Positions 23,413-55,411 of a stretch of DNA of 64,000 nucleotides are shown in pieces. Under the pieces are notes generated by a model. It ran no database searches. It was not told the origin of the DNA and was given only the letters and a program-made list of their open reading frames with translations. How positions within the stretch are numbered: the stretch's first letter is position 1; each line of letters opens with the position of its first letter. The stretch spans positions 1,698,001 to 1,762,000 of the forward strand of contig NZ_CP095376.1 in the NCBI RefSeq assembly GCF_023008405.1, read 5' to 3'. The position numbers and the translations under genes are program-made. This DNA comes from Amycolatopsis sp. FBCC-B4732 (GTDB lineage: Bacteria > Actinomycetota > Actinomycetes > Mycobacteriales > Pseudonocardiaceae).

Positions 23413-24396
23413 ATGTCGCACCAGAATGACCAAGAAGTATCCAGTTGGCTTCAACCGTTATCTTCGGATGCGCGACAGGTGTTTATTTCACATGCTGCTG
23501 AAGATGTTGAAATCGCATTCAAGGTTGCAGCGTTGCTGAAACGCTACTTGGATATCAACGCATATGTCGATCAATCTTTCCTTCGCGTTGGAAGCAAATG
23601 GCGCCCCGACATCGAGGGTAAAATAAAATCATCGGAAGTGGTTATCGTACTCCGGTCAAGAGTGGTGGCTGCAGAAGCCTCGCCCGGCGTAATTAATGAG
23701 GTTGAATACGCCCGTCAGATGAATATACCTGTAGTTTTTGGCGCGATCAGAGGTGCTAAGCTTTCGGATGTTCATCACGAGATTGACTTTGGAGAAGATG
23801 GTTCTAGGGTTGGAGCCGTCTGGGATTTGGCAAAGTTCTTGTTGTCAGAGTCCCATCCGTACCGGGCCTTAGGGCTGGGGTCCGTCTGTGTGGGCACTGC
23901 GTCGGTGTCAGCGACGCTAGGGGACCCCGAGATCATTGCTTCGCGCGAAGGGATGATTACTGTTCTAGGTCATACAATGAAGCAATGGCTGGGAAATTAC
24001 GGAAATGCTATCCGCCACGCACGGTCAAAAATACGCATGTACTTCCCTGCGACAGATGCTATCGGTATGGACCTACTGATTGCTTCGCATCGTAATGAGC
24101 ATCTAGTTTTGAGCGAAATCGAAAAGTCGAAGGCAGCTGCGCTGGAACTCCAGGTAGAAATTGACGATCCTGAGAAGTTTGCGGCGTACTTAGTCCCAGT
24201 TAAGCCGATGTTTAGCGCAACCATCGTTGAGCCTAGTGGTGCAGAGGCCGTTATTGTCGTAGATCCGTACTCGTTTAAGGTTGGCGCCGAGCTTCGACCT
24301 AAGTTTATTGTGCGAGGTAAACATACTGACCTGTTTTCTTATTATCATAAGGTCGTATCAAACATAATTGCGAAAAGTGAACCACTTAGACTGTAG
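23413..24396 (+). CDS. TIR-domain protein with unrecognised C-terminal domain
   Basis: A 327-residue protein. The N-terminal 20-150 is a TIR domain: RQVFISHAAEDVEIAFKVAALL, VGSKWRPDIEGKIKSSEVVIVL and PGVINEVEYARQMNIPVVFG, where Glu96 or Glu98 is the likely catalytic residue of an NAD-cleaving enzyme. The C-terminal 140 residues (KIRMYFPATDAIGMDLLIAS onward) form an alpha/beta domain I cannot name; it may sense a ligand or infection signal. It is probably co-transcribed with the Nudix gene. Bacterial TIR proteins commonly act in phage defence by depleting NAD or producing cyclic ADP-ribose signals; that role here is inference. Confidence 0.8.
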   Translation: MSHQNDQEVSSWLQPLSSDARQVFISHAAEDVEIAFKVAALLKRYLDINAYVDQSFLRVGSKWRPDIEGKIKSSEVVIVLRSRVVAAEASPGVINEVEYARQMNIPVVFGAIRGAKLSDVHHEIDFGEDGSRVGAVWDLAKFLLSESHPYRALGLGSVCVGTASVSATLGDPEIIASREGMITVLGHTMKQWLGNYGNAIRHARSKIRMYFPATDAIGMDLLIASHRNEHLVLSEIEKSKAAALELQVEIDDPEKFAAYLVPVKPMFSATIVEPSGAEAVIVVDPYSFKVGAELRPKFIVRGKHTDLFSYYHKVVSNIIAKSEPLRL

Positions 24397-28587: not shown

Positions 28588-30039
28588 TCAGCTCGAATCG
28601 ATGTTCTGTAGTCGCCATTCTGCGCTGCCGCAGACGATGAACTGTCCCGAGCCTCGTAGCGCTGTCGCGACGCGGCTGCTTCGTGTCCAAGCGGACTCCA
28701 GCGTGGCGTGGCCGTCATCGTCTTGAACGCCGAGCCGGACATGGATCTCGTCCACGAGGTGGTCTTCACGGATGTAGAGCGTCTTCGGCCGCGGCTGGCC
28801 CGCGCGCTGGGTGCTGGTGTGGCCGTGGCGGCAGCGGTACGTCGGTCGCCCGTGGTTCCAGTGCGAGTCCAGCCGCCGGTTGCAAACGCCGCAGTGAATT
28901 AGCCCGGCGAGGGCGAATCGGCGAGTCTGACCGTCGCCAGCGGGGCGCGCCGCCCGGACTTGCTGCGCGGCGACGAAGTCCTGCTCCGAGATCAGCGCCG
29001 GATGGGCAGCCTTCGCCGACAGTGCGGGCGTTGAGGCTGGGCCTTCGGTGCCGGTGGCGCGGCGGTTCCAGGTCTGGCGACCGGTGTAGCGCGGGTTCGC
29101 CAGGATGACGGCGACGGTGCGTAGGATCCAGGAGCCGCGGGTTCGGTGGCGGTTGCGGTCGGGGTCGGCGCTGGACGGGCAGGGGATGCCGCGTTCGTTG
29201 AGGTGTCGGGCGATGCTGGCGACGCTGTGCCCGGCGAGACGCTGGCGGAACATCCAGGCGACGTGGGGTGCGGTTCCTGGATCGGGTGCGAGGCGCTGGA
29301 GGCGTCGGCCCCAGCGGGCGTCGGCGGGGTTGGGGTGGGGGCCGGCGTCGACGAGCTGGTAGCCGTAGGGTGGTCGTCCGCCGAGGTAGCGGCCTTGCTG
29401 GGTGGCCTGGTTGTGCATCGCCGCCAGGACGCGGTGGCGAGCGCGGAGTACTTCGCGTTGTGACTGGGTGGCCAGCAAGGCCAGCAGTGCCCGGTGGTCG
29501 CGGTTTCCCAGATCGACCGGGCCTCCTGTCTCGGGTAACCACAGCTGGATGCCGTGGCGGTTGCACCAGGTGTAGAGGGTGGTGAACTGGGTGCCGGTGA
29601 AGGCGCGCTCGTACTCGCCGACCACGATCGCATCGATCACGGATCCTGGACCCGAGACTGCGGCCATGAGCTGGGCACCCTGCGGTCGCTGTCGCCACGG
29701 GATGCGGCGTGAGGTGCCGGCGTCGAAGTAGGCGGCGACGACCCGGCCGTGGCCCGCGACCAGCTCATCGGCCATGTCGCGTTGCCAGCCCTGCGACGAC
29801 ACGCGATCTTGATGTCGGACGGTCGAGGTGCGGCCGTAGAAGGCGAACCGCAAGCCACTGCCATGGTCGGGGCGGGTAGAGGTGGTGGTTGCCGGCTTCT
29901 TGCCGTTCATCCACTGCGCCAGCAGGTCGGCCGTGCCGGCAAGTGGTGCGGCCACCTGAGGCGAGGGCGGGTGCGGTGGGATCTCGCTGGACGGATGTCG
30001 CGGCCGTCGGGTTATGACGGCGCGCTCCGAGCGGTTCAT
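28588..30039 (-). CDS. Large serine recombinase (second integrase)
   Basis: A 483-residue recombinase related to, but clearly different from, the one at 14.9-16.4 kb. The catalytic domain has LRFAFYGRTSTVRHQDR with the nucleophile Ser at about residue 72 and AYFDAGTSRRIPWRQRP and VVGEYERAFTGTQFTTL further on. The recombinase domain has YLGGRPPYGYQLVDAG and ILANPRYTGRQTWNRR. The zinc ribbon is CGVCNRRLDSHW with YRCRHGH. A disordered Pro-rich 60-residue leader precedes the catalytic domain. It is complete. Directly downstream is one copy of the att-like sequence shared with 50.4 and 53.5 kb. Confidence 0.9.
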   Translation of the reverse strand: MNRSERAVITRRPRHPSSEIPPHPPSPQVAAPLAGTADLLAQWMNGKKPATTTSTRPDHGSGLRFAFYGRTSTVRHQDRVSSQGWQRDMADELVAGHGRVVAAYFDAGTSRRIPWRQRPQGAQLMAAVSGPGSVIDAIVVGEYERAFTGTQFTTLYTWCNRHGIQLWLPETGGPVDLGNRDHRALLALLATQSQREVLRARHRVLAAMHNQATQQGRYLGGRPPYGYQLVDAGPHPNPADARWGRRLQRLAPDPGTAPHVAWMFRQRLAGHSVASIARHLNERGIPCPSSADPDRNRHRTRGSWILRTVAVILANPRYTGRQTWNRRATGTEGPASTPALSAKAAHPALISEQDFVAAQQVRAARPAGDGQTRRFALAGLIHCGVCNRRLDSHWNHGRPTYRCRHGHTSTQRAGQPRPKTLYIREDHLVDEIHVRLGVQDDDGHATLESAWTRSSRVATALRGSGQFIVCGSAEWRLQNIDSS

Positions 30040-32169: not shown

Positions 32170-32337
32170 ATCTCGAGTTGCACACCGCTGTGCGGCCGAC
32201 CAGCGCTCGGCACAAGACTTCACCGAGTAGATGATGACCGACATGCATCACGGCGGGGAGCTAGCTCGGCTCCTTCCGCTGGTCGGATACAGCTTCATGC
32301 CGGGCAATCGGTCACCAGCATGGACTAAAGGATGGGC

Positions 32338-35300
32338 ATGGCCGGAGACCTCGAATTCGCCGAACCCGTACGCCGTTGGCTGCGTGTCCGCAGCGGAGAG
32401 GACCAGGACGACCCGCCGTTCGAGCTGGACGACGAAGGGTTCCTGCCGGATCCCACTGCCGATGAGCCGCTCCGGATGGGGGCGGGAATGGTGCGCCCCG
32501 AGGACGCCGTTGTCGAACGAGGCGCCCTGGTCCTGCTCGGGGAACCCGGAGCCGGCAAGACGACCACCTTCGCCCGGTTGACCGACGCCGACCGCAGCGC
32601 CGGGGAGCCCGAACCGGGATATCCCGGCACGGTATGGATCAACGGTTCGGAACTCGGTGATAGCACCTCTTTCAACGAGGTCTTGGGCGAACACCTCGCG
32701 GCGCTGCCGCCGGCCGGAGCCGCGGAACCGCTGACTGCGACGCTGACCATTGTCCTCGATCAACTCGATGAAGCGGCGAACTTATTCCGGTTGCCGGCGC
32801 GATTGAAACGCGCACTCAATGACAAGGACACCCGTGCACTGCGGTTCCTCATCGCTTGCCGGACCGCGGACTATCCCGAAGGCCTGACTCGAGTGCTGGA
32901 GCAAGCACTCGGCGCGTGCGTCGTCGCTGATCTGGCGCCGCTCACTCGCGACGACGTCGCCACGCTTGCCGCCAGCACTGACGTGGACGCAACAGCGTTT
33001 GTCGACGCCGTCGTCCGGGCTGGCGTCGGAACGCTTGCCAACACGCCCCTGACTCTGAAGGTCTTGCTCGCGGCGTTCCGGCAGGAGGCGGACGCTCTGA
33101 GCAGGACACCCCGAGAGCTGTTCGAAACGGGGGTCACGCAGCTGGTCGACGAGCACGACCGCGGACGGGCCATCAAACCGTTCGCTACCACCACAGTCGA
33201 AGAGCGGCTGGTGATCGCAGGACGGATCGCCACCCGCATGCTGCTGTGTGGCCAGCGCACAATCTGGTGTGGCGAAGCCGCTCAAGCCGGCCCGGAGGAC
33301 ATCACCGAAGGGATGCTGGCGCGCGGCCGCGAGACAGCGGCTGGCTCCTTCGAGGTGTCACCGCCAGCGGTAGGGGAGACCCTCAGAACGGCGCTGTTCT
33401 CCCGCAGCGGCAAGAATCGCGTCGCGTTCGCCCACTCGTCGTTCGCTGCGTTCCTAGCCGCTCGGTACCTGACCGCCCGCTCCGGCGCCGACCTCGACGC
33501 ACAGCGGGGAATAACTGGCGTGTTCCTCGTCGCAGCACCCGATGAGGAAACCGCCAGCATCCCGATACACCTGCGGGAGACTGCGGCGTGGATGCTCGCT
33601 CACGCCCCCGGGGAACATCTCTGGCTGGCTACAGCCGATCCCGAAGGCCTGATCGCGCACGGCGCGTATATCACCGATCTCGCGACACGTGCTGCGATGG
33701 TGGGCGGGCTTCTCCGCCGCGCGGGGGAGGTCGAGCTCAGTGAGGGGTCATGGCACCGGACCTGGTGGAGACTGGCGCACCCAGGATTAGCAGGGCAGCT
33801 GACCGCCGTGCTGTCTAGCGTACTGACCACGGGTTCCGAGGAGTGGCAGGACTTCGCTGCGGCAAGCCTGGCGATCCGCTTTGCTCTCGACGGCGAGGTT
33901 GGGGAGGTCGCCGAACTACTTTTGGAGGTTGCCGAGGCCTCGAAACTCGCTCCAGCACTCCGTAATCGCGCGATTAAGGCGTCGATGGCGACCAATCCGA
34001 GGATGGCTGCTCCTCGGCTGCGGAGCCTGCTGGCCTCGCTCACTCCTGAAACTGACGCCGACGATGACAGCGAAGAACTTGTCGGGACAATCCTCTCCGA
34101 ACTGTGGCCCGACCATCTTGACCTTGCCGATGTGCTACCGCATCTTCGCCCTGTGCGCGCGGATTCGGTGATCGGCATGTACCGATGGCATCTGTGGCGT
34201 CTCCCCGGAGACGTCGCTGAATCCGATCTTTCGGCCTTGCTGACCCATGGCACCCGCCTCGTCGATCAACTTCTGGCACCCCCTGCTGGTTCCGACACGT
34301 CCGAGCTGACCAACTTCAGCCCAGACCTCGCGCGCAGCCCGACATTGGACGATGTGCTCGCGCCGATCTTTGATCGCATCACGGTGTCACCGAACGTCGA
34401 GGAATACCTGCCGGTACTCGCGCGGCAGGTGTCTCGGCTGCTTCTGGCGTCGGCCAGGGTGCCGGTACCGCTGGGAGCCGATCTTGTCGATGAGAGCGGG
34501 AAAGTCACGACATCCAGCATCGATGTCAGGCGTTCATTCGCTGAGGCGGTGATCCTGGCGCTCACTGCCGAGGTCGCCGAATTCGATCTATACCACGCGC
34601 ACCTGGTCCTATGGGAATGGAAGTCCGCCCGCCACGGACCGGCTGCTCCGCAAGGACTTCGACGCGGCGACCGGACGCACTTGCTCGACGACAGTGACTT
34701 CGCCTGGTTGCTCGCGCGAGTCGACAACCTGCGCAGCAGCGGCGAGCACAAGCAGGCAGATGCCGTGGGGCTGGTCGCTGCCAGCGTCGCTGACCTCTAC
34801 AACCCGTCGACTTTTGAGCTTGCCTACGCTCGGTGTGGCACGCCGGAAGGTGAACACTTTGCGTGGGCGTTCGACGGCGTCCCGCTCGACAGCAAACTCG
34901 CGGAAGCGATGCGTCGCAACGGTTCGAAGGAGAAACCGTGGGAGCACGCGGACGCGTTCGCCAGCCGGCAGCGCGACCGACTGCAGTCGGCCATGGCCGG
35001 AGACGCCAATGCCTTCTGGCGCCTCACGCGTGATCTGCGAGCCGATGTCGCGACCGGACAGTTCGATGCCCTCGACTCCGATGATCCACGAGTCCTGCCC
35101 GGTGCTTCCCTGTGGGCACCCGAAGAATTCATCGCCGCGTTCAGCGTCGCCGCGCGTCAGTTCTTGGATGCCGAGAACGACCACCGAGACGAGTGGCTGG
35201 GTACGCAGACCAGGGACTACCGTGCCGAGGCTGGCTACGCTGCGCTCGTCGTTCTCCGCGACAATGGCAACCTAGACGACATATCGGACAGGTGGGCAGG

Positions 35301-36843
35301 GTGGGTCGGCGCAGTACTGGACAAAGCGCATCGCGCCGCGACGACCAGAGACTCTTCGCTTATCCGCGATCTGATGTCCCGAGTCGGGACCCATGCGGCA
35401 ACGGAGCTTGTCGCCGCGATCCGCACACTGGTTCGTGGTTCGCTTGCGCGCGGGGAAGCGCCCTGGGCGCTGGCTGAGATCATGTCATCGGTGCCGGCCA
35501 CCGTGCATCCCGCCCTCGTCGAACTCGCCCGCGACCTGCGCGCCGCGCTGGACGGCTCCGATGACTCCGGCAGTCCGTTCACAGTTCCTGACACACTCGA
35601 AGCCAGACGCAGTGCAACCAACACGTGGGCCACCTTGCTGCACGAGCCCCTTCTCGCCGGCAACGATGCCGCCCTGAAACAGGCGGAAAACGCACTTGAT
35701 CACGAAGTGATCGAGGACCACGCCCTGTGGACGGCCGCAGCAGGGCGTCTTCTCCTGCTCTCCGACCCGGAACGTTTCTGGTCTCGGATACATCAGGCCT
35801 TGACCGCCTCGCCGGCGTTCTCGAAGGACCTCGCATTCGCGAGCGCTCAGACATACCGCCTCAATGAGGTCGCCGAGTCACTGCCCGACCGCGAACTTGT
35901 GGAAGCGTGGCGATGGTTGGCCGACGTGTGCCCACCGGAGACCGACGTCTTCCGCGAAGGCTGGGTTCCTCCCGAAAGGTCAGTCCACGATTGGCGCAAC
36001 GCGATGCTCAACGTACTGTCGAGGCGTGGCACCCAGGAATCAGTCCTGGGCATACGAAGTCTCGTGAACAGCTTCCCGAACGACCTCCGGCTTCAAGCCG
36101 CACTGGTCTCAGCCCGGCGCCAAGCGCAGGCGCGAGCGACCGTCCTGCTGAAGCCGCAACAGGTGGTCGAGTTGCTGGCCGATCCGGGACGACGGGTGGT
36201 CCGGACCCCGCTGCAACTGGCGGAACTGCTCATCGAAGTGCTGATCGAGATCGAACGTGACCTGCCGACTCACTCGAACCTTTTGTGGGACTGCGAACGT
36301 GAGCCGAAGCCTGTCGATGCTCCGAGTTGGGCGCGCCGTCCGCTGGTGTGGCGCCCCAAGCTCGAGGGAACTCTCGCCGCTTACCTTGCTCATGAGTTGA
36401 CGATCCGGCTCGCTCGCCGAGCTGTGGTGATCAATCGCGAGGTCGTCGTCAAGCCCACCGATGCGGGCGACTCAGGTGAACGACCGGACCTCCTTGTGCA
36501 CGCGATCGCATTTGAGGGCGAACTCGACGCTGCCGAAGTAGTGAGCGTCCCGGTGGAGATCAAGGGTTCCTGGCATGCTGCGGTGTCAACGGCTCAACGC
36601 GATCAGCTCGCCAATCGATATCTGCCAGCCGAAAAGACTGACGCGGGCGTGTACGTCGTCGGCTGGTATCCCATCGACTTGTGGAGCGCGAAGGACCGCA
36701 ACCCGAAGGCCAACGCAAGAAAGCTCGTCGGCCCCGAGCCCTTGTTGGAGATCCTGCTCAGTCAGGCAGACGAGATCTTCGAAGAGTCTGGGCGACGAAC
36801 CCTGCCGTATGTCCTGACGATCACGAGGGCGGCCCCAAGCTGA
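32338..36843 (+). CDS. STAND/NACHT-type ATPase with C-terminal PD-(D/E)XK nuclease, candidate defence protein
   Basis: A 1,501-residue protein; AAAGG lies six bases before the ATG at 32338, with an alternative ATG at 32332. Walker A GEPGAGKTTT starts at residue 68 and Walker B TIVLDQLDEA is near 137-146, followed by FLIACRTADYPEG, as in NACHT-like STAND ATPases. FAHSSFAAFLAARYLTAR (near 365) matches the winged-helix end of that module. About 900 residues of helical repeat-like sequence follow, probably the sensor. The last 150 residues contain ERPDLLVHA (about 1382) and VVSVPVEIKGSW (about 1404-1412), spaced as the D and ExK of a PD-(D/E)XK nuclease. Most described Avs proteins carry the nuclease at the N-terminus; here it is C-terminal. 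It converges on the PLD operon 50 bases away. Confidence 0.75.
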   Translation: MAGDLEFAEPVRRWLRVRSGEDQDDPPFELDDEGFLPDPTADEPLRMGAGMVRPEDAVVERGALVLLGEPGAGKTTTFARLTDADRSAGEPEPGYPGTVWINGSELGDSTSFNEVLGEHLAALPPAGAAEPLTATLTIVLDQLDEAANLFRLPARLKRALNDKDTRALRFLIACRTADYPEGLTRVLEQALGACVVADLAPLTRDDVATLAASTDVDATAFVDAVVRAGVGTLANTPLTLKVLLAAFRQEADALSRTPRELFETGVTQLVDEHDRGRAIKPFATTTVEERLVIAGRIATRMLLCGQRTIWCGEAAQAGPEDITEGMLARGRETAAGSFEVSPPAVGETLRTALFSRSGKNRVAFAHSSFAAFLAARYLTARSGADLDAQRGITGVFLVAAPDEETASIPIHLRETAAWMLAHAPGEHLWLATADPEGLIAHGAYITDLATRAAMVGGLLRRAGEVELSEGSWHRTWWRLAHPGLAGQLTAVLSSVLTTGSEEWQDFAAASLAIRFALDGEVGEVAELLLEVAEASKLAPALRNRAIKASMATNPRMAAPRLRSLLASLTPETDADDDSEELVGTILSELWPDHLDLADVLPHLRPVRADSVIGMYRWHLWRLPGDVAESDLSALLTHGTRLVDQLLAPPAGSDTSELTNFSPDLARSPTLDDVLAPIFDRITVSPNVEEYLPVLARQVSRLLLASARVPVPLGADLVDESGKVTTSSIDVRRSFAEAVILALTAEVAEFDLYHAHLVLWEWKSARHGPAAPQGLRRGDRTHLLDDSDFAWLLARVDNLRSSGEHKQADAVGLVAASVADLYNPSTFELAYARCGTPEGEHFAWAFDGVPLDSKLAEAMRRNGSKEKPWEHADAFASRQRDRLQSAMAGDANAFWRLTRDLRADVATGQFDALDSDDPRVLPGASLWAPEEFIAAFSVAARQFLDAENDHRDEWLGTQTRDYRAEAGYAALVVLRDNGNLDDISDRWAGWVGAVLDKAHRAATTRDSSLIRDLMSRVGTHAATELVAAIRTLVRGSLARGEAPWALAEIMSSVPATVHPALVELARDLRAALDGSDDSGSPFTVPDTLEARRSATNTWATLLHEPLLAGNDAALKQAENALDHEVIEDHALWTAAAGRLLLLSDPERFWSRIHQALTASPAFSKDLAFASAQTYRLNEVAESLPDRELVEAWRWLADVCPPETDVFREGWVPPERSVHDWRNAMLNVLSRRGTQESVLGIRSLVNSFPNDLRLQAALVSARRQAQARATVLLKPQQVVELLADPGRRVVRTPLQLAELLIEVLIEIERDLPTHSNLLWDCEREPKPVDAPSWARRPLVWRPKLEGTLAAYLAHELTIRLARRAVVINREVVVKPTDAGDSGERPDLLVHAIAFEGELDAAEVVSVPVEIKGSWHAAVSTAQRDQLANRYLPAEKTDAGVYVVGWYPIDLWSAKDRNPKANARKLVGPEPLLEILLSQADEIFEESGRRTLPYVLTITRAAPS

Positions 36844-36892
36844 CGTGGAGCGACATGGACAGGTAACGCCCGGCATCGCGTCGAGGGGCAGG

Positions 36893-39508
36893 TTACGTGA
36901 GAAGTGCGGCTTGGAGCAGCTGCTCGTTGATTCGGACTGTCTCGGTAAGTGTGCGGACCGCCACCGGGAAGGGGCGGAGTGGATATGTCTTGCCACCGGC
37001 GGGCAGCCCTTCATCGCCGGTCAGTAGAGAGAAGGGTGTGCTCATCGGAGACAGCCTGTAGACACGCCAGCGGGGGGCGGTCGACTCAGCAATCGCGAGC
37101 GTCCGACCGTCGCTCAGGACGATGGTCGTCTTTGCTGCGTTCCGGGCGACTACCGCGGACGGAGACGCGACGAGAGTCGCCACGCGGGCAGCCACGCGGC
37201 GCGGGTTGCGAAATTCTCCGTCGATGACCCACACACCGTCCATCATGCGGGCCGGCAGGCCCTCGCTCTCGAGTGTGGCGCGGTCTACGGCGTGGGGGTC
37301 GTCGGCTGCGGCGGCGGCGAGGTCGATGATCGTTTCGACCTCGCTCCAGGCGGGCACGCGCGCGTACGGCTTGTCGGGAACATAGAGGTACTCCTCGGCG
37401 AGTTTCGGGTCGGCGCAGGCGGCGAGTTCGGCGGCGCTGGTCCAGGCTGCTTTGGCGATGATGTCGTGCTCTCCACCGCCGTGGAGGCTGGCGTCCTGCA
37501 GGAGCAGGGCGAGACAGACGGCGACCAGCGAGCTGACGAAGTCGAGCGCTTGACCGGGCACGTCCTCCTCATCGGCGGCATCCGGCACCAGCGAGCGCGT
37601 CAGGTCGCTGAGGTCGGAGCGCCACGCCTCGTCGGTGCCCCATACCGCGGCGGCAAGCAGCACCAGGTAGGTGCGGGTGACGAGCATCCGTAGTTCGAGA
37701 GGTGGGCGCGGTGTGGCGGTCGCGGCGCGTGTCCACCGGCGGGCCCAGGACCGATACTGAGCCCGCTGTGACGAGGGAATGTCGGGTGCGAGCCGCGCAG
37801 ACTGGGCTGAGGCGGCTTCGGTCAAGTCTTCGACCGCGTCGTCGCTCTCGCCGTCCGCGAGCTCTGTTTCGTCGACGTCGGTATCGACGGACCAGCCGGT
37901 GGTTGCCAGGCCCGGGGCGGCGAGAACTCCGGGAAACAGCAGTCCGGTGAGGTGCGGGCCGAGGCTGCGTTCCACGGACTCCAGCCATACGCTCCAGCGG
38001 TCGTCGGGAGGGACGGCGGCTGCGGTGGCACCGGTGCCTGCGCGCAAGGCCGAGGCCCCGGTGGCCGGCTTGTGCTCCTGGACGTGACTGAGCAGCCGGA
38101 GCAGGTCGGCGTTGAACCGGCGCGCGAGAACCTTGTCGGTCAAGACGGTGTCGTCCTCGGCGATGAACGTCATCCGCGGCTGGTTGGTGGTGTCGTCGCG
38201 GGGCCGGCATCGGGCTGTGTCGGTGAGGAAGACGACGGGGGAGACGAGACGCTCGCCTGGTTGTTCGGCTCGGGCGCGGACCGCTCCGCCGAGCGCTCCC
38301 GGTGCGGCGAAGCTGAGGACTTGGGTGGCTGTGCTGGTGGCGGTGAAGACGTGCAGGGGTGTCCAGGTGCCGGGGGTGCCGTCGGGTGAGGATTCGATGG
38401 TGATCGGCACGCTTGTGGTGGTGACGAGCTCGACGAGGATCGTGTGCTGTATTCGTCGCGCGCCGAGCACGACGAGCGTGTGCTTCTGCGCGCGTGAGTC
38501 AACGGGGATCGTGTTGTTTCGGACAATGGTCGCGCGGTCGACGGCTGTGCCTTCTGGCAGCAGGGATGCGGGCACCGGCATGGTAGTGACGAGTTCGCAG
38601 TTGCCGCCGTCTGCGGTGGTGGCGAGAAGGGCGGCGGCGCTGAGGTTGGCGCTGCCGATCATGGCGATCGTCGTGCCGTCGATGGTCCATTCGACGAGCT
38701 TGCCGTGCCGGGTATGTCCCTCATCCAGGTAGCGGAACCGGGTTAGACCGACGGATGCGGTGGCCGCGACGAGGGCTTCCCCCGAGTACTGGGAGTCTCG
38801 TTCCTGGAGTGCCAGGTCGACCTCGCGCGGCTGCAGTCTGTTGATCAGGGCCTGAATGCCGCGGCCTTGTGCGTCGAAGAAGGGCGCTGTCATGCGCAGC
38901 GAGCGCACCGGCCCGGCCGGCAGCTGCCCGACCAGGGAATGTCGCAGGTTCCCGAAGATCCGCAGGTCAGGTCGGGAGCCGTCGGCCTCGTCCGGGGTGA
39001 TCCAGTGTCCGACGTGCGTCAGGGTGTCCGCGATCCAGGACGGCACCTTGACCACCCGGGGCAACTCGGTAAGCCATGCACCGAGGTCATGTAAAGCCGC
39101 AGGCCCTCGGTGCCGGGAAGCCCGCAGGACGAGCCACAACTCGTGGTTGTGACCCCAGCCGGACATGGTCGGGTTCCCGGAGCCGATCGCCGCCCAGACG
39201 TCGTCGTCACCGGCCAAGATCACGACCTTCGGATGAAACGCCCCGCCGCAGCTGACCTGGGCGTGCTGATAGGCCCGGCCCGCCTGCCGGACGTCGACCG
39301 CCTCGTGCACGGCGTTGCCCGCATCGCCCAGAACGGTGACACGAGCACCCAGCGCGCGAGCGGTCGGCACGCAGTGCCGCTCGAAGAAGACCAGGTCGAG
39401 GGTGTAGCCGGTGACGAGGCATTCGCGCAGTGGTGCGCCGTCGGCTCGACCGTCCCACTCCTGCAGCAACGACAGCGGGGAATGGAACTGGTAGGCGACC
39501 TGAGTCAT
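36893..39508 (-). CDS. Phospholipase D-superfamily protein, putative nuclease
   Basis: An 871-residue protein whose ATG overlaps the preceding stop as ATGA. Two HKD motifs are visible: FHPK at 91-94 with GSGNPT at 109-114, and RHGK at 267-270 with GSANLS at 285-290. The N-terminal 300 residues therefore form a complete PLD catalytic unit, seen in nucleases as well as lipases. Residues 330-430 are beta-rich (TILVELVTTTSVPITIES); the remainder is helical and Ala-rich. PLD proteins of this size occur in defence systems (DrmC is a smaller example), but this architecture is not one I can assign. Cotranscription with the 500-residue gene is near certain. Confidence 0.75.
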   Translation of the reverse strand: MTQVAYQFHSPLSLLQEWDGRADGAPLRECLVTGYTLDLVFFERHCVPTARALGARVTVLGDAGNAVHEAVDVRQAGRAYQHAQVSCGGAFHPKVVILAGDDDVWAAIGSGNPTMSGWGHNHELWLVLRASRHRGPAALHDLGAWLTELPRVVKVPSWIADTLTHVGHWITPDEADGSRPDLRIFGNLRHSLVGQLPAGPVRSLRMTAPFFDAQGRGIQALINRLQPREVDLALQERDSQYSGEALVAATASVGLTRFRYLDEGHTRHGKLVEWTIDGTTIAMIGSANLSAAALLATTADGGNCELVTTMPVPASLLPEGTAVDRATIVRNNTIPVDSRAQKHTLVVLGARRIQHTILVELVTTTSVPITIESSPDGTPGTWTPLHVFTATSTATQVLSFAAPGALGGAVRARAEQPGERLVSPVVFLTDTARCRPRDDTTNQPRMTFIAEDDTVLTDKVLARRFNADLLRLLSHVQEHKPATGASALRAGTGATAAAVPPDDRWSVWLESVERSLGPHLTGLLFPGVLAAPGLATTGWSVDTDVDETELADGESDDAVEDLTEAASAQSARLAPDIPSSQRAQYRSWARRWTRAATATPRPPLELRMLVTRTYLVLLAAAVWGTDEAWRSDLSDLTRSLVPDAADEEDVPGQALDFVSSLVAVCLALLLQDASLHGGGEHDIIAKAAWTSAAELAACADPKLAEEYLYVPDKPYARVPAWSEVETIIDLAAAAADDPHAVDRATLESEGLPARMMDGVWVIDGEFRNPRRVAARVATLVASPSAVVARNAAKTTIVLSDGRTLAIAESTAPRWRVYRLSPMSTPFSLLTGDEGLPAGGKTYPLRPFPVAVRTLTETVRINEQLLQAALLT

Positions 39509-41007
39509 GCCGCCAGCTCCAGTATCTGCACTGCCAGTGGTGTGATCACGAGACCGGTGTCGCTGCGCTCGGCAAGACCGAGCTGGCGGGTGATGAACTC
39601 GAACTGATCGACGCGCAACCCGACGTTGCCGGCACCTTCCGTGCCGGCCGCGTAGTACTGGCCGTTGCGTTCGTGCAGCTTGGTGAACAGCTTCATCCGC
39701 CCCTGAGCGTCGAGCCGGAGTTTGCGTAGCGCGACTCGCTGGGACTGCGCGAGCATGTCGTCGACGAAGGCCCGCGCAAGCTCGGCCATCGGCTGACCTT
39801 CGTGCTCACGGTGCCGGTAGGCCACCCAGTGCGGATCGAGGAACTGCTTCCGTTCGGGGTAACGGCCGAGGAAGGTGGCTTGGCTACGGCCGGTGAGCTG
39901 GTTCTTGCGCTGACCCCCGAAGAGCAGCGCGGCCAGGTCGGCCGTGACGGCGGTGTGGCCGTCGCGCACTTGCCGTTCGGCCGGGTTCGGCTCTCCTTCT
40001 GCGTCGACGAGGCTCGGGCACCCTGCCAGGAAGGCTCGCACTGTCATGGCCGGCACTTCGGCGGATATCCACTGGTAGAGGTCGTCCTTGGTCGCCGAGC
40101 CGTGCGTGGTGACCTGCTCGACCAGTGCTGCCCATAACCGCCGCCAGGCTCCGACGGACAGTCGCCGCAAGAGTGTGCCGCGCCACGCTTGCGCTCGGTC
40201 TTCGGCCGACAGGACAGGGTCGGTTCGGATCCGGTTATCGTAGGCGACGCAGTCGTGAAGGGCCTCCGACCAGCTGGAAGCGCCTGGTTGGAGCATGGCT
40301 GAGCGAGCCAGGATCCGTAGCGTGGATCGTCGGGTTCGGTCGTTGCCCGTCCATTCCTGCGGGTCGTGCCGGCCGTCGTGGGAGGCGGTGATGAGGTCAC
40401 GGAGCGGCTCGAGGTCCGCGGCTTCGTTCGCGTCCATGGCCAGTCCAGAGAGGTGAGCGACGTCGTCGGGGTGGACTGGACGGTCGTGTGCCAGCTCCAG
40501 CAGGGGCCGGAACATCTCCCTGACGGCGGGGGGACACTCGCGGGTGCCGGGCCGCAGGGCGCCGCTGTCCACGGTGACCGTGCCCAAGACGGCGCTGGGC
40601 CCGTTGTATTGCGACCAGAAACCCCACGGACGGGGTGAGTAGGAGGCGCGGCCGATTTCGGCGAGTTCGTCGATCTGTCCTCGGACGAGCGTGGCTTCCA
40701 CCCGGTCGGCTCCATGCGCGGGGATCGTCTTGCCGCGGGAAACCAGCGCAAGAGCAACTTCCGACCGTCGGAGAACCGTCTGGCACGTGCTGGCATCCCA
40801 CTCCCGGCGCCCTGCGACGTCGGCGAGTGCCCAGTAGAGGGAGTAGTACCGAGCCAGTGTGGTCAGCGTCGACACGCCCGGTACCAGCGTGTCCACCATG
40901 CCCATGACCGACGACTCGACCGAGAGCGGGTACCGCCCCGCCTTCAGGTCCAGCCCTGGCTCGCACCAGACCGGGCCGACAACCTCGGCCGACATCATCG
41001 GAGCCAC
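39505..41007 (-). CDS. Unrecognised 500-residue protein encoded with the PLD gene
   Basis: First gene of a two-gene leftward operon. The start is a GTG at 41007 or ATG at 40998; neither has a strong Shine-Dalgarno. The N-terminal segment LSVESSVMGMVDTLVPGVST and then LARYYSLYWALADVAG recalls, in outline only, proteins of the DUF6361 kind that sit beside helicase or PLD genes in defence loci. The middle is helical; the C-terminus has LGLAERSDTGLVITPLAVQI, which looks like a winged helix. No catalytic motif is evident, so it may be a DNA-binding or sensing partner of the PLD protein. Its stop overlaps the PLD start by four bases. Confidence 0.65.
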   Translation of the reverse strand: MAPMMSAEVVGPVWCEPGLDLKAGRYPLSVESSVMGMVDTLVPGVSTLTTLARYYSLYWALADVAGRREWDASTCQTVLRRSEVALALVSRGKTIPAHGADRVEATLVRGQIDELAEIGRASYSPRPWGFWSQYNGPSAVLGTVTVDSGALRPGTRECPPAVREMFRPLLELAHDRPVHPDDVAHLSGLAMDANEAADLEPLRDLITASHDGRHDPQEWTGNDRTRRSTLRILARSAMLQPGASSWSEALHDCVAYDNRIRTDPVLSAEDRAQAWRGTLLRRLSVGAWRRLWAALVEQVTTHGSATKDDLYQWISAEVPAMTVRAFLAGCPSLVDAEGEPNPAERQVRDGHTAVTADLAALLFGGQRKNQLTGRSQATFLGRYPERKQFLDPHWVAYRHREHEGQPMAELARAFVDDMLAQSQRVALRKLRLDAQGRMKLFTKLHERNGQYYAAGTEGAGNVGLRVDQFEFITRQLGLAERSDTGLVITPLAVQILELAA

Positions 41008-42425: not shown

Positions 42426-42607
42426 GACCGGAGTCGGTGCGTAACGGCTGCATACGTCGCCGCGACTCCCCTGTGCGCGGAAGGTCATTCGAGCGGAGAA
42501 TCTCGGTCGCTGACGACGACCGCGGCTGGTGCATGCACACACAAACGTGGTCGACGAGCGGCCAGCGCAGTGTGAGGAAAAGCGCATTGGCGGGAAGGGG
42601 GAGGTTC

Positions 42608-44032
42608 GTGATCATGCCCAGACGCCCGGTCCTGACAACCGGCGCCTTGTTCGCGGCGTCTCTGGCAGCCCCGTGGCTCGCCGAAGGCCGGGCGTCGGCA
42701 GCAGTGCCGATGGCCGTCGCGGTCGGCAAGATCGACATCACCCCGGAAGCGGGTATCCCGCTTGCGGGCTATGCGACAGACACCCCACGGCTCGCCGCCG
42801 GTGTGCGTCGTCCGCTCCACGCGCGATGCACCGTGTTCTGGGACAACGGGACTCCCAACGTGATCGTCACCGCGGACGTCTTGGCGTTTCCCCGCATCAT
42901 CCACCAGGCAATCAGGTCCCGGATCGTCACCCTCGGGGTGGCGTCCCCGGATTTCGTGCTCACCGCAACCCACACCCACAACGGGCCCGTCCTCAACCCC
43001 GATATCACCGCCTACATCCTCTACAACATCGTCGACCCCTCCTCCCACTTGGACACGGTCCGCGGCTACGCCGCCTGGGTGCAGGACCAGATCGTCGACC
43101 TCGTCCAGGCGACGCTCGCGGCCAACGCGGTTCCCTGCACGTTGGACTATCAGGTCGCTGATGAGGCGTTCTCCTACAACCGGGAGGGAATGGCGGTCGT
43201 CGAGCGGGATGTGCCGATTCTGGCAGCCCGCGCTCTCGACGGGGCGCCGCTCGCGGTGTTGTTCGGTTACGGATGTCACCCCGTCGTCGGTCCGGGGGAC
43301 ACGCTCATCGACCCGGACTACCCGGGGCTCGCGGTGGAGGTGGTCGAGCAGCAGACCGGGGGCTTTGCACAGTTCCTCACCGGCGCGGCCGGGGATCAAG
43401 ATCCGGTGGCTCCCGGCGGCTGGCAGGCCCTCGAGGACCGCGGCCGCGACCTCGGCCAGACGGTCATCAGCGCGATCGCCGTTGCCGGCCGGCCGGTCAC
43501 CGGGCCGATCCTGACTGCCTACCGTGATGTCGAGGTTCGGCTCGACATCACCGACACCCCCGGCAACCTCGCGGCGGCTCGCGCGAACTTCGCCGTTCGG
43601 CAGGCCACCGCGGCGGGGTGGATCAGCCGCCACGCCGAAGTCATGATCGACCAGATCGACGCGCACAGCTTTGCGTTCACGACCCCGGTCCCGGTGCAAG
43701 CCTGGCGCTTCGACGGCGGCACCCCGCTGCGGCTGGCCTTCCTCGGCGGGGAACCGGTGTCCGGCTACGCCGCCTACTGCCGCAGCCACTATGGCGGGAC
43801 TAACGGGATCTGGTTCTCCGGATATGCCGGTGAGGTACCCGCCTACTTGCCGACCGACGAGCTGCTGATCACCGGCGGTGCCTGGCGCTACGCCTGCGGG
43901 TGGTCCAATGACTTCCCAGGCATGGGCGGCGGCGCGATGTGTGCGTACGGCATCATCGCGCACTACCTGCGCAACGCCCAAGGTAACGGAGTAGAAGACA
44001 CCCTGATCGCGGCGTTGAACGCTGTTCTTTGA
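42608..44032 (+). CDS. Exported neutral/alkaline ceramidase-like hydrolase
   Basis: About 474 residues. GGGAGG precedes the GTG at 42608; an ATG follows two codons later. MPRRPVLTTGALFAASLAAP with a cleavage-like RASA is a Tat- or Sec-type export signal. The mature protein starts VGKIDITPEAGIPLAGY, typical of the neutral ceramidase superfamily. It has the zinc-site motif TATHTHNGP (about residue 120) and FGYGCHPVVGPGD (about 220), with FLTGAAGDQDPV later. It lacks the C-terminal beta-sandwich of full ceramidases, so it belongs to the shorter relatives whose substrates are unknown. No link to its neighbours is apparent. Confidence 0.82.
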   Translation: MIMPRRPVLTTGALFAASLAAPWLAEGRASAAVPMAVAVGKIDITPEAGIPLAGYATDTPRLAAGVRRPLHARCTVFWDNGTPNVIVTADVLAFPRIIHQAIRSRIVTLGVASPDFVLTATHTHNGPVLNPDITAYILYNIVDPSSHLDTVRGYAAWVQDQIVDLVQATLAANAVPCTLDYQVADEAFSYNREGMAVVERDVPILAARALDGAPLAVLFGYGCHPVVGPGDTLIDPDYPGLAVEVVEQQTGGFAQFLTGAAGDQDPVAPGGWQALEDRGRDLGQTVISAIAVAGRPVTGPILTAYRDVEVRLDITDTPGNLAAARANFAVRQATAAGWISRHAEVMIDQIDAHSFAFTTPVPVQAWRFDGGTPLRLAFLGGEPVSGYAAYCRSHYGGTNGIWFSGYAGEVPAYLPTDELLITGGAWRYACGWSNDFPGMGGGAMCAYGIIAHYLRNAQGNGVEDTLIAALNAVL

Positions 44033-45953: not shown

Positions 45954-48900
45954 TTATCCAAGATTATCGTTGATTTCCGGTATACCTTCGACAAAGCCAC
46001 CAACTTCAGTGAGATACGAATTGACTATCGCCTCGATTGGCCAAATATGCGCCCTCCAGAGCTGTTCGACTTCCCGGAGATTGATCGGCTCGTCAACCAC
46101 TACGCCTCGATATTGAGTCACGCTATCCAATAGTGCGTCAATATTCTTGTTTCTCGTACCTGCGACAGGGAGAAATAGTCTCAGTATCAGATTGACGCCG
46201 TCCTCGAGGAACCACTTCGGATCTGTTAAGCTTGGAATTTCTTCCAAAATGTCAGGATGGGCAATAACGGTTGCCGCGAGTGCGAATCCGCATGGCTTAT
46301 GGACGTCATTGTGGCTCAAAAGAAACTCAACGAGACTCTTTGCTTGGTCAATTGTTGTGGCTGCAACTCTGAGCTTGAGTAGCATTTCAATATGGATAAG
46401 TGCGGATTCAAGCTCCTTCGGCTCGACACTCGATGTATCCTTGATGAGGAGGACGTTTAATCCATCGTTGCGTCCGTTTGCTGCACCGTGCGCTAGCCAC
46501 GGCCTAATCACGTCTGACCAATTGTCATGGGGGCCCGCCCAAAAGGAGCTATTGACGAACGCTTCGCCGAATCGGTGAATCAGCTCCAGGTTGCGGTCAT
46601 TTGATAGCCTCGCTTGTTGAGTCGAGGGATCGAGCCCGTAAGAGGGATAAGCGCCGAGCTTGACGCAGTCACCGATACGGTCCAGGAACGAGATTGTGGC
46701 GTGCCAAGCACTGACGGATAAGCCAGCCTGCCATAGTGCCAGCAATGACCGCCACGGTCCAAAGGGGTCGTTATTGGGGCCGACGACGATCCGGATTATC
46801 GAGTTCTGCTGGTTCGGGCTGAGCGCCAGTCGAAGGAAGACAAGGTTGGCGGAGTACGCCGCTAGTCGCGCAATCTGGTCGTCGTCGTCGGAAAGGTAGG
46901 CGCGGTAGCGCTCAGATTGGGGCCGGACGCGGTGGCGGTCGATAAGCAGGTCCAACACCTCCAACATCTGCTCAACCTCGATTTGCGAAAGTTGCCTCCC
47001 GAGCTGCGTGACGAAGGTCAGCGCAGGACGCAATTGCGCCAAGGGCTGATGTGAAAGCAGCGCAAAGAACAGATCGTCGTTGGGTGTCCGCATCTCACCT
47101 CGGTGTGAACTAAAAGCTGCTCTTGTTACCTCATGGAGCTCATCGATCACCCGGCTTGCAACGAGGTAATCCCCAAAAGTTGAATGCAGGAACTCGTAGC
47201 GCTGATCGCGTTCTCCTGAGACACGGGACTCACTCGCGTAGACAAAAAAGAATTCTCCGAGTGCTCTTTCATTGATATCAATCGCTTTGCGTCCACCAGT
47301 GAGTGCCTTCAGGTCGTCCTCGAGTTGGCGCGCCGTGATGTCCTGAGTACCCCTGTTGAACATGCCTAGCGACGCTGTCGACAGTCTCGCGAGGTGTTTG
47401 TCGACGCGCCTTCGCATCTCTTGAGGCGGGAGTGTTCCAGAAGACTTCTCTGCCTCTCGCTCGGCGAAATGTTCCAGCAGGCGGCGGTATAGCTCAGCGG
47501 AAGAGATTCGCTCATCTATCGTTGTTACCTCGGGATTGGAGACGTAAATAGCCATCATTAGAAGGAGCAGTGGTTGGGCAATGAGCTTCCGCTGACTTAG
47601 GGCGACTTCCGGTGGAAACTGCCGAACGGTGCCTGCAACGATACCCGCAGCGTTGGCGCGGTGCCACGACGTAAGCCAGGACTGGATTCGGTCGTCGGTG
47701 AAGTCCTCCAGCTTGATCATTGTGGTGCCGGGAGCGATGTCTACACGATCGCACGCGAGAGTGCGGCTGGTCACGATGACAGAAACGGGGTGGCCTTGAT
47801 CAGCTTCCCGTCGTTGGAAGTCGGCCACCGCCTCAAGGTAGCCGTACAGCCTGGTGTGGGTCTGCTGCAGCAGCTCGTCCAGGCCGTCGAGGATGACTAC
47901 TTTCACAGTGTCCACGCTCTGATCCACCAATTGCGTCCATATGACGCGCTCGCCCGTGATGTAATCGAGCGCTTGTTGAATCTGTGCTAGAACCGAGCTG
48001 TGCCCATCGGTCCTCCGCAACGGCACTCTGACGACTGTGTAACCGCTTGCGGGTAGTCTGCTAGCCAGTACTTTGCTCAGCATGCTCTTGCCCGCCCCTG
48101 GATGACCAAGCAGTAACAGCGGCCTACTGGTTGATTCTGTGGAGGCCAGATGTGCCATCAGTCGGATGTGAAGGTCGTTGTGCAATGGCTGCTCGGACCA
48201 CCAAGTGTCGTCTGCGGGGCGCGAAGCGTCATCGACGACAGCAAAACGGTAGTCAGGGGTAAGAAAAGCTTGCTTGACGCTCGGAAACATGAGGTGCTTG
48301 CCGTATCGGGCTCCGGTCGACTTACGCAGTATCGGATCGTCGAGAACCGATCGGTTGGCCCTGGCGACTCGGTCTGGTTGGTCAGCCAATCTTCGCTCGC
48401 CTGGGTCAACGAAGGTTGATAAGGCTCGCTCGAGCCGGGAGAGTGCAGAGTCATTGCCGTAGAGCAGGTCGTCGCGAAGTGCGCGAACCTCTGAACGTGT
48501 GGCAGCATGCTCAGTGACAACTGCCCACGCCTGGAACTCTGGGATCTCCGCCATTAGCGCTACGTAATGCGACTCGTATCGTCGGGAAGCGTTCTCGGGT
48601 ATTTGGGATGAGTGAGTGAAGCTAGATTTATTTGTTGTAGTGAGTAGGTGGCCAAATGAACGCACCACCTCGCGGTGCAGTAATCTCTGCCATTTATTTA
48701 CGTCTTCTATGTTTTCGGAGAAACCGTGATGCACGCTGGGTGTGGGGACGTTACTCATGTAGAGCTGACTGATGCTAACTTGGGCAATATTCGCTTTATC
48801 GACTTCGGATAGTTTCAAGAGATCGTAATCATCGCCCAGGGCTTCGCGTAGCGCCTCGAAATAGGCCGACACCACCAACACAGTGTGAGCGGCGGTCATC

Positions 48901-49181
48901 TGCTCGACCCGTTCCGGGAAGGGGATATTTTTCCGCCTGCTAGGTAACCCTGCCAGAGCTTGAGAAACCAGTCGGACAGCCTCGTTCTTCTGGTCGACCC
49001 AGCCCCACAGCGCTGTGAAAAAGACCACGGGGGCAGTCGCCGGGTTGCTCAGTAACGCCCCGATGCCTGCGCCTAAGACGACGCCGCCAAGGAGAAGGTC
49101 GATTCTCTTGATCCACTTATGGTCATGCTTTCCAAGCAGCCGTAGGGCGCCCTCGTAGGTCAAAGCCTGATCCGAAGCCAT
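45954..49181 (-). CDS. Membrane-anchored NACHT-domain ATPase, candidate defence protein
   Basis: A 1,075-residue protein from the ATG at 49181. Residues about 22-57 contain two hydrophobic stretches (LLLGGVVLGAGIGALL and ATAPVVFFTALWGWV), predicting membrane attachment. The NACHT module has Walker A LLLGHPGAGKSMLSKVL (about 360) and Walker B KVVILDGLDELLQQ (about 428), then VIVTSRTLACDRVD. YEFLHSTFGDYLVASRVIDE marks the winged-helix end near 680. The C-terminal 350 residues are helical, probably the sensor. No nuclease or TIR effector is seen, so the N-terminal membrane segment may be the effector. G+C is markedly lower than in the flanks. It is a single-gene unit. Confidence 0.8.
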   Translation of the reverse strand: MASDQALTYEGALRLLGKHDHKWIKRIDLLLGGVVLGAGIGALLSNPATAPVVFFTALWGWVDQKNEAVRLVSQALAGLPSRRKNIPFPERVEQMTAAHTVLVVSAYFEALREALGDDYDLLKLSEVDKANIAQVSISQLYMSNVPTPSVHHGFSENIEDVNKWQRLLHREVVRSFGHLLTTTNKSSFTHSSQIPENASRRYESHYVALMAEIPEFQAWAVVTEHAATRSEVRALRDDLLYGNDSALSRLERALSTFVDPGERRLADQPDRVARANRSVLDDPILRKSTGARYGKHLMFPSVKQAFLTPDYRFAVVDDASRPADDTWWSEQPLHNDLHIRLMAHLASTESTSRPLLLLGHPGAGKSMLSKVLASRLPASGYTVVRVPLRRTDGHSSVLAQIQQALDYITGERVIWTQLVDQSVDTVKVVILDGLDELLQQTHTRLYGYLEAVADFQRREADQGHPVSVIVTSRTLACDRVDIAPGTTMIKLEDFTDDRIQSWLTSWHRANAAGIVAGTVRQFPPEVALSQRKLIAQPLLLLMMAIYVSNPEVTTIDERISSAELYRRLLEHFAEREAEKSSGTLPPQEMRRRVDKHLARLSTASLGMFNRGTQDITARQLEDDLKALTGGRKAIDINERALGEFFFVYASESRVSGERDQRYEFLHSTFGDYLVASRVIDELHEVTRAAFSSHRGEMRTPNDDLFFALLSHQPLAQLRPALTFVTQLGRQLSQIEVEQMLEVLDLLIDRHRVRPQSERYRAYLSDDDDQIARLAAYSANLVFLRLALSPNQQNSIIRIVVGPNNDPFGPWRSLLALWQAGLSVSAWHATISFLDRIGDCVKLGAYPSYGLDPSTQQARLSNDRNLELIHRFGEAFVNSSFWAGPHDNWSDVIRPWLAHGAANGRNDGLNVLLIKDTSSVEPKELESALIHIEMLLKLRVAATTIDQAKSLVEFLLSHNDVHKPCGFALAATVIAHPDILEEIPSLTDPKWFLEDGVNLILRLFLPVAGTRNKNIDALLDSVTQYRGVVVDEPINLREVEQLWRAHIWPIEAIVNSYLTEVGGFVEGIPEINDNLG

Positions 49182-49403
49182 ACGCCATTTTACCGCATTA
49201 CATCCAAGTGGCACGACGCTCGTCGCAACGATGACGCGAACCGCAGCATAACGTGTCACTTCGTTGAACGGCACATAACAGCCCGCTCAGCAGCATGGCG
49301 GGACCCGGCGGAGCCTCCTGTACGGCGAGGCGAGCCTTACCCCATGCCGGACGGAGCCTTGGTACTGCAACGGCAGTTGGTGGTGCTGTGGTAGATCTCC
49401 GTT

Positions 49404-53631: not shown

Positions 53632-54894
53632 TCAGAGTAACAGCAGCTGGTCGCCGACGGTCTCGTCCATCGTGGCAATTGCGCGTGATGGACCGCATGC
53701 CTTGACTTTACGAGTCGGGCCGCCGCACGTGATCGTGAGGTCGTTCGATCTCAGGTAGTCGGCGATCGCCGACCTGTCATCGCCTACGGTCTCGGCGAAT
53801 CGCGCGCGGAATTCGTTGAGTAGGTGGTCTTCGCGGACGTAGACGTTTTTGGTGAGTTCTGGTGGGCGGGTGTGGGCGCTGGTGTGGCCGTGGCGGCAGC
53901 GGTAGCCGGGGCGGCCCTTCACCCAGTGTGAGTCCAGTCGGCGGCCGCACAGCTGACATTGCACAAGTCCCGCCAGCAGATACGCCCTGGTATGGCCGTG
54001 CTGTGTGGGTCGGGCCGCGCGCATGCCCTGGACCGTCAGGAATGTCGCCTCGTCCACGAGCGCCGGATGTGTCACCTTGTCCGACTCGGCCCAGCCTCGT
54101 GCCGCTGACGGTCGGGTGGGAGCACCGTCGTGCGGCGGGCCGGTTGTTCTGGCGCCGTGTCGGTTCCACACCTGCCGCCCGGTGTAGCGAGGGTTCTCGA
54201 GGATCCCGACGACGGTCCGGACGATCCACTCGTGCTTCGTCCGGTGTCGGTTGCGAACCCGGCCGGCGCTCGACGGGCACGGGATGCCCCGGTCGTTCAG
54301 CTCCCGCGCGATCCCGGCCACACTGCGTCCGGTGGCTCGTTGCTGGAAGATCCACCGCACCCACGGTGCGGTGGCCGAGTCGGGTTCCAGGCGGTGCAGT
54401 CGGCGGCCCCAGCTCGCGTGGCCCCGGTTCGGGTGCGGGCCGGCGTCGGCGAGACGGTAGCCGTAGGGTGGCCGGCCGCCGAGGAACCTGCCCTGCACGC
54501 GGGCCTGAATGTGCATTGCGGCCAGCACTCGGTGCCGGGCCCGCAGCACCTCGCGGCGTGACTGGGATCCGAGGAGCAGCATTAGCGCCTGGTGCACGGG
54601 GTCGTCGAGGTTCACCGGACCGTCCGCTTCGGGGAGCCACAGGTGGATGCCTTGCTGCTGAAGCATGGTTAGCACGGTGTTGAATTGGTCTCCGTAGAAC
54701 GCGCGCTCGTACTCTCCGATGACGACGGCATCAAACGGACGGTTCGGTTGTGCTGCGGCTGCCATTAGTTGTGCCGCGGCCGGCCGTTTACGCCAGGGAA
54801 GCCGACGTGAACATCCTTCGTCGAAGTACTCCGCCACGATCACACCGTGTCCGCGGATCGTCTCCTCGGCAACCTCGCGCTGCCACGCGATGTA
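53632..54894 (-). pseudogene. Large serine recombinase, C-terminal part of a split gene
   Basis: About 420 residues in frame from YIAWQREVAEETIRGHGVIV to the stop at 53632. It holds EYFDEGCSRRLPWRKRP, VVIGEYERAFYGDQFNTV, FLGGRPPYGYRLADAG, ILENPRYTGRQVWNRHG and the zinc ribbon CQLCGRRLDSHW. The catalytic N-terminus with the nucleophile Ser is absent: just upstream of the YIAW segment the sequence changes to an unrelated Crp-type gene on the other strand. The missing start is found at 61525-61644 in the same orientation. It is closely related to the recombinase at 28.6-30.0 kb. Confidence 0.88.
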
Positions 54895-55411
54895 CCCGCC
54901 AGCGGCCGCCGCGCATCTGATCGGCATGACACCGGAGGAGGCCGCGAGGGTGATACAGGATCTGCCGCCCGACAAGAGCCGGGCCATCATCCGCGAGATC
55001 GACAAGCTGGTCGGCAAGGCCACCGTGGACGCCGAGGGTGCCACCACCAGGGCCGAGGCCGACCGGCTCAAGAACGCCGTGGGCGGCGACGGGACCGTGG
55101 TGGCGATGAACGCGGAACGGCGACGACCGCCGGGCCCGGCCGGTCCGGTGGACTCGGCCGCCTTCGACGTCAGCCGCCGCGTGGCCGTGCAGTTGGTCCG
55201 GCTGGCTGAGGAACACGGCCGGCGCGTGCCGGAGGGTGTGGTCATCGAGGCCGCGTTGTCGCAGGAGGACATCGCCGGGCAGGTCGGCGCCGCCCGACGC
55301 ACGGTCGCGCGAGCCCTGCGCGTCCTGCGGGAGCGGGGGATCATCGAGACTGGCCGCCGCCGGATCCTCATCCGTGAGCCGCGCGTCCTGCGCGCCTTCG
55401 CCCACGATTAG
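54895..55411 (+). pseudogene. Crp/Fnr-type regulator fragment, 5' truncated
   Basis: The C-terminal 85 residues form a Crp-type winged helix: AAFDVSRRVAVQLVRLAEEH, LSQEDIAGQVGAARRTVARA and then LRVLRERGIIETGRRRI. The cyclic-nucleotide-binding domain is missing. The preceding 90 residues (MTPEEAARVIQDLPPDKSRA and following) are unlike it. The coding frame begins exactly at the junction with the split recombinase. An ATG at 54926 could still permit a 161-residue protein. Regulation by a ligand is lost if the usual domain was present. Confidence 0.6.

Follow-up and report, generated by a model that had tools for sequence, protein, structure and literature searches.

Gene layout and genomic setting

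We analyzed a 64-kb window, i.e., the whole stretch of DNA given above, which lies on a contig of 10.19 Mb; going by the names of the nearest proteins, the genus is Amycolatopsis-like. Open reading frame (ORF) calling in this window recovered, at their places, the three frames that an earlier sequence-only reading had picked out. An EruA-like NACHT/STAND ATPase of 1503 residues is encoded on the forward strand (32332..36843) and apparently forms a single-gene system, referred to as System 1 in the following. The sequence-only reading had located this gene correctly and had given it a start at 32338 and 1501 residues, which corresponds to the in-frame second ATG; the ORF itself starts at 32332. 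System 2 is a gene pair on the reverse strand that codes for a ZacA-like protein of 500 residues (39505..41007, GTG start) and a ZacB-like PLD nuclease of 871 residues (36893..39508). The gene of the 500-residue protein comes first and shares 4 nt with the PLD gene in an ATGA stop/start overlap (39505..39508, reverse strand). The ATPase and PLD genes are convergent, and 49 nt separate their facing stop codons.

The defence setting of the window also includes a second NACHT protein, a TIR-domain protein, and serine recombinases. The second NACHT protein (45954-49274, reverse strand, 1106 residues) has a strong NNH7 N-terminal helical domain (Pfam, E 2e-55), and its gene, some 5 kb away from the pair, is a further predicted defence gene. 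The TIR-domain protein has 327 residues (23413-24396, forward strand). Three related large serine recombinases are encoded on the reverse strand (14879-16408, 28588-30039, and 53632-55371), two of them assigned by Pfam and the one at 14879-16408 by similarity to the other two. A 683-residue protein (61811-63862, reverse strand) had no match in Pfam; judged by its motifs, its C-terminus presumably resembles a CHAT protease. At 42437-44032 (forward strand) lies a gene for a neutral/alkaline ceramidase-like protein, the Pfam match of which (E 7.6e-8) falls just under the cut-off. Flanking genes did not place the edges of the island within the genus: relatives of the glycerate-kinase gene were found in 80/80 genus genomes, mostly at less than 40% identity, and the ceramidase-like gene has a patchy distribution.

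The ATPase is EruA-like and carries a C-terminal nuclease domain

The ATPase consists of an NTPase region (residues ~60-380), a long middle region, and a PD-(D/E)XK nuclease region (~1340-1503). It contains a Walker A motif, GEPGAGKT, at residue 70 and a Walker B motif, IVLDQLDE. In Pfam, AAA_22 (E 1.6e-5) and NACHT (E 4.7e-4) were matched, both below the Pfam cut-offs. The NCBIfam model NF058535 (EruA) was matched with E 8e-54 and 183.2 bits, best over residues 133-646, and its equivalog cut-off of 1000 bits for the whole protein was not reached. Judged by its sequence, the ATPase is a divergent relative of EruA, i.e., EruA-like rather than an EruA proper. The name of NF058535 is 'NACHT domain-containing antiphage protein EruA'; an antiphage role of the window's ATPase is a prediction. 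Our literature searches returned no paper that joins EruA with antiphage, none that joins Eru, NACHT, and phage or anti-phage, and none that joins HyoA and phage. In the available text of PMC12839154, the name EruA belongs to an E. coli regulator.

We modelled the C-terminal piece of the ATPase (residues 1308-1503; 36253..36840, forward strand) as a separate nuclease domain. Pfam gave no match for this tail, and Foldseek alone found no significant match for the model. In a second structural look (VIA), ranks 1-15 were all restriction-type nucleases. Residues E1345, D1386, E1409-x-K1411, and Q1425 were invariant in 43/43 sequences (alignment A3), and the signature residues were 98-100% conserved when 50 homologues were aligned with the window's protein and gaps were left out. 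An E...D...ExK site thus sits on a restriction-type fold, which supports the C-terminal PD-(D/E)XK nuclease that the sequence-only reading had seen on this STAND ATPase.

A profile of the tail matched 45 of the 50 homologues, among them the near-EruA proteins P0260 and P0259, which are not members of the profile; 19 of its 20 members are pieces of those same homologues. Four of the five proteins missed by the profile were short (871-1170 residues). The fifth, P0257, an EruA-like protein from a myxobacterial assembly, has a PNP_UDP_1 domain at residues 1473-1673, where the others have the nuclease.

P0260 scored 957.5 bits against the EruA model (positions 9-1318), and its tail matched the tail profile of the ATPase family with E 1e-10. 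EruA and the window's ATPase, which is about 150 residues longer than P0260, have in common a NACHT NTPase towards the N-terminus and, at the C-terminus, PD-(D/E)XK domains that are homologous. Because the near-EruA protein P0260 has the same tail domain, the layout that the sequence-only reading had put forward as new is, on sequence grounds, that of the EruA group. In addition, STAND proteins with C-terminal predicted effector domains are already described in the text available for PMC8195603. Distant relatives of the ATPase occurred on three IMG/VR viral contigs (L103, L104, and L105; 25-29% identity). Phage records contained no relative of the ATPase or of the PLD protein at E 1e-5, and the scan of viral contigs gave no relative of the PLD protein.

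The PLD protein has two conserved half-sites

The PLD protein matched PF13091 (PLDc_2) in Pfam with E 1.2e-7, and a RE_NgoFVII match on its second lobe (E 0.0024) stayed below the cut-off. Both lobes read HxK...GSxN...E, with the two half-sites contained in residues 1-310. In an alignment of 56 sequences (51 of 90 search matches, four loci, and the window's protein), H92, K94, S110, E123, H268, S286, and E305 were present in 56/56 and K270, N112, and N288 in 54/56. The two complete HKD motifs described in the sequence-only reading are therefore two complete PLD half-sites and do not follow the strict HxK(x4)D pattern: HxK occurs twice, an Asp at the canonical spacing is absent, and the nearby Asp is unconserved. 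Among PADLOC models, ZacB was the best match (E 2.2e-9), and it matched 54/56 of the aligned PLD sequences at 0.01.

PLD enzymes of the BfiI/NgoFVII type are metal-independent restriction nucleases. These enzymes, represented in Pfam by RE_NgoFVII, have the same HxK...GSxN...E half-sites as the PLD protein, which differs from this type in that it carries both half-sites in one chain, a long C-terminal region, and a ZacA-like partner. The C-terminal region belongs to no known family. In several genera of the family, this region (residues ~550-869) was matched, mostly at 45-50% identity, without matches to the nuclease lobes. Such lobe-less frames of about 325-530 residues are putative genes (L056:8194-9129, L057:8190-9035, and L059:7001-8191); by eye, the L059 frame seems to begin near residue 460 of the PLD protein. 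Pfam had no family for them.

The 500-residue protein matches ZacA weakly

The 500-residue protein matched a single PADLOC family, ZacA, with E 3.3e-4. An alignment of 81 sequences was compiled from 75 of the best 120 of 204 matches, five loci, and the window's protein; ZacA, the only PADLOC family to appear, matched 39 of them at 0.01. Its structural model was of high confidence (pLDDT 91.7) and had no clear structural match. The last 90 residues show a helix-strand-strand pattern, and the model is suggestive, though no more than that, of a winged-helix-like end. Relatives, where named among the matches listed, were mostly annotated as 'hypothetical protein'.

The pair is a conserved unit in variable surroundings

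In a scan of named species genomes, we found 38 loci of the 500-residue protein in 12 actinobacterial genera, with flanks of up to 10 kb, some of which end at contig ends. A PLD gene lies directly downstream in 37/38 loci; the remaining locus, from Streptomyces poonensis, is a partial match. The sequence-only reading of the two genes as a tightly coupled pair is borne out. The 500-residue protein was also matched in 16/200 family genomes, 14 of them with a PLD match beside it; the other two (G022 and G098) hold fragments. With the window's own genome excluded, both genes co-occurred in 13/15 family genomes (hypergeometric P 3e-8). We conclude that the 500-residue and PLD genes belong together.

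Neighbours of the pair were counted with baits, which reach fairly close relatives only; with some loci at contig ends, the counts are lower bounds. At least six of the 38 loci had a helicase, seven a Ser/Thr kinase, and five an HsdM-like methylase. In the sequence around each locus, 32/38 loci were without a match to the six helicase baits and 28/38 without a match to any of nine baits. The pair has kinase and helicase genes in its vicinity in L071, L072, L078, L090, and L093, and HsdR together with a kinase in L097. In L074, clustering brought out an HsdR-like gene to which the baits had been blind. The helicases scanned were DrmD-like, DpdE-like, or DruE-like with a fused kinase; the L078 helicase also matched ZacC (E 7e-16), far behind DrmD (3e-79). 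Two loci from family genomes serve as examples only, and L042-L053 stand outside the 38-locus counts: in L044 the pair lies beside HsdR and HsdS, and in L042 beside BrxC/D and a Schlafen-type helicase. Type I genes near the pair among its relatives comprise HsdR, HsdS, and HsdM. The neighbours hence mark a defence setting without a fixed third partner. L078, L090, and L093 also have relatives of the window's recombinases in the neighbourhood of the pair.

Comparison with Azaca

ZacA and ZacB are the other proteins of Azaca besides ZacC. In the portions of the papers available, a PLD-like domain is tabulated for Azaca (PMC10952713), an SF1/SF2 helicase domain is assigned to ZacC of Azaca (PMC12278908), and Azaca is listed among the systems enriched in Actinobacteria, with its mechanism described as unknown (PMC10482375). 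The window's pair appears to resemble Azaca in combining a ZacA-like with a ZacB-like protein that has a PLD domain, the weak profile matches falling in one overlapping pair. Lengths and sequences, in contrast, are far from the models: the proteins are longer (500 and 871 residues versus 396 and 586 model positions), and the matches cover short stretches only. Moreover, unlike Azaca, the pair has no ZacC match in its genome: the whole-genome search gave 0 matches at E 0.001 and was positive in 6/14 control genomes. Nor did Pfam reveal a helicase among 17 ORFs of the window, all of them right of 17 kb. A ZacA family search gave no match in the own genome, nor in the control genomes, and hence carries no weight. 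ZacA/ZacB-like names in the literature were, among the matches listed, unrelated, and a paper on phosphorothioate systems mentions neither PLD nor Azaca. Most likely, the pair is a helicase-less ZacA-ZacB relative, and we consider it the less-explained of the two systems and the part worth pursuing.

The ATPase and the pair are unlinked outside close relatives

The ATPase was found in 0/38 flanks (up to 10 kb) of the 500-residue gene. It was matched in 12/200 family genomes, several times weakly or in part, and nearly end to end in the own genome, G078, and G136 only; in the phylum sample, 7/296 gave a match. Both the ATPase and the 500-residue gene occurred in the own genome alone among the 200, with 0.96 expected by chance. 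The 80 genus genomes contained the PLD protein in four (two full, two fragments) and the ATPase in six (two full, four partial or weak), and the window's genome was again the only one with both. With the own genome excluded, five of 11 ATPase-bearing family genomes matched part of the PLD protein (2.4 expected, P 0.06); these matches lie on other contigs, and none of the five genomes has the 500-residue gene.

With the length of the longest contig as a proxy (56,671 and 447,882), two of the 50 ATPase homologues (P0211 and P0215) appear to lie on the same contig as a PLD homologue. Their hosts are close Amycolatopsis strains, in which both systems are apparently kept at 88-92% identity. Locus tags are neighbouring in one strain, and the ATPase of the other has 977 residues and extends over 62% of the query. 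That both systems are kept there is explained by the recent common ancestry of a single island. The ATPase is thus unlinked to the pair outside close relatives, which bears out the caution of the sequence-only reading that the locus may hold two systems. The single module of three genes that it had put forward as a candidate is not supported, as the conserved co-occurrence on which it had made the module depend is absent in the 38 loci, the 200 family genomes, and the 80 genus genomes.

Discussion

From this lack of co-occurrence we conclude that the ATPase and the pair are probably two independent predicted anti-phage systems that adjoin in a recombinase-rich and defence-rich region, System 1 being an EruA-like STAND protein and System 2 an Azaca-related pair without ZacC. 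Both are divergent, and each is related to a kind of system already described. From STAND biology and the conserved sites we infer a scheme for System 1 in which the middle region would sense an infection signal and the NACHT module would oligomerize on ATP. The C-terminal PD-(D/E)XK domains would thereby be brought together and cut DNA, and the infection may be ended by destruction of the phage and probably the host DNA. In System 2, the two-lobed PLD nuclease would be metal-independent, by analogy with the BfiI/NgoFVII type. The 500-residue protein may hold this nuclease in check and direct it, acting as a DNA- or signal-recognizing subunit.

A single three-gene module, in which the STAND ATPase senses infection and the PLD pair provides joint effectors, could be read from the short convergent spacing and from the arrangement seemingly kept in two other Amycolatopsis strains. 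Convergent genes do not make an operon, however, and the ATPase carries a nuclease of its own; together with the empty flanks and co-occurrence not above chance in family and genus genomes, this makes such a module very improbable. Also very improbable is an assignment of the ATPase to the ordinary Avs/bNACHT proteins. Like these, it unites a STAND ATPase, here with a NACHT-like NTPase, and a PD-(D/E)XK nuclease in one chain. In the available text of PMC12169576, however, the usual order of bNACHT proteins is an N-terminal effector followed by a C-terminal sensor, and an N-terminal PD-(D/E)XK gives an order opposite to that of the window's ATPase, in which Walker A at residue 70 precedes a C-terminal nuclease. 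The reversal against Avs that the sequence-only reading had pointed out is thus a fair contrast. Moreover, PADLOC gave no Avs match for the ATPase; its match is to EruA.

For the pair, one has to consider that it is a stranded accessory of larger systems, i.e., of type I restriction-modification or of DISARM/Dpd/Druantia-like sets of helicase and kinase. The helicase, kinase, methylase, and HsdR genes counted near its relatives, including the L078 helicase with its secondary ZacC match, speak for this. In contrast, most loci lacked any bait match, even if such counts are lower bounds on partners, and the partners vary by locus while the pair is constant; we hence regard an accessory role as unlikely, though not negligible. 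A toxin-antitoxin pair, with the PLD protein as toxic nuclease and the 500-residue protein as its neutralizer, would agree with the 4-nt overlap, the 500-residue gene in first place, and an active site in one partner opposite no recognized enzyme family in the other. But a large, highly conserved partner is unlike most antitoxins, and both genes match parts of a defence system, so that we find this reading improbable. A bolder proposal, for which we see somewhat less than an even chance, is that the two genes make up a nuclease defence of Actinomycetota that suffices by itself, without a helicase, and is distinct from Azaca. Here, a new-fold partner would sense invading DNA directly and license the two-lobed PLD nuclease, and in several genera the PLD C-terminal region would have been taken up as a separate gene of the chromosome.

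Without the separation made here, the two systems would be tested as a single one. With the ATPase, the STAND proteins that have a C-terminal effector gain a further branch, and the nucleoside-phosphorylase-type domain of P0257 points to the tail as a slot in which effectors can be exchanged. A helicase-less Azaca relative would be a minimal version from which the roles of ZacA and ZacB could be learned. With relatives of its 500-residue protein in 12 genera, the pair is found in many soil actinobacteria and is little described.
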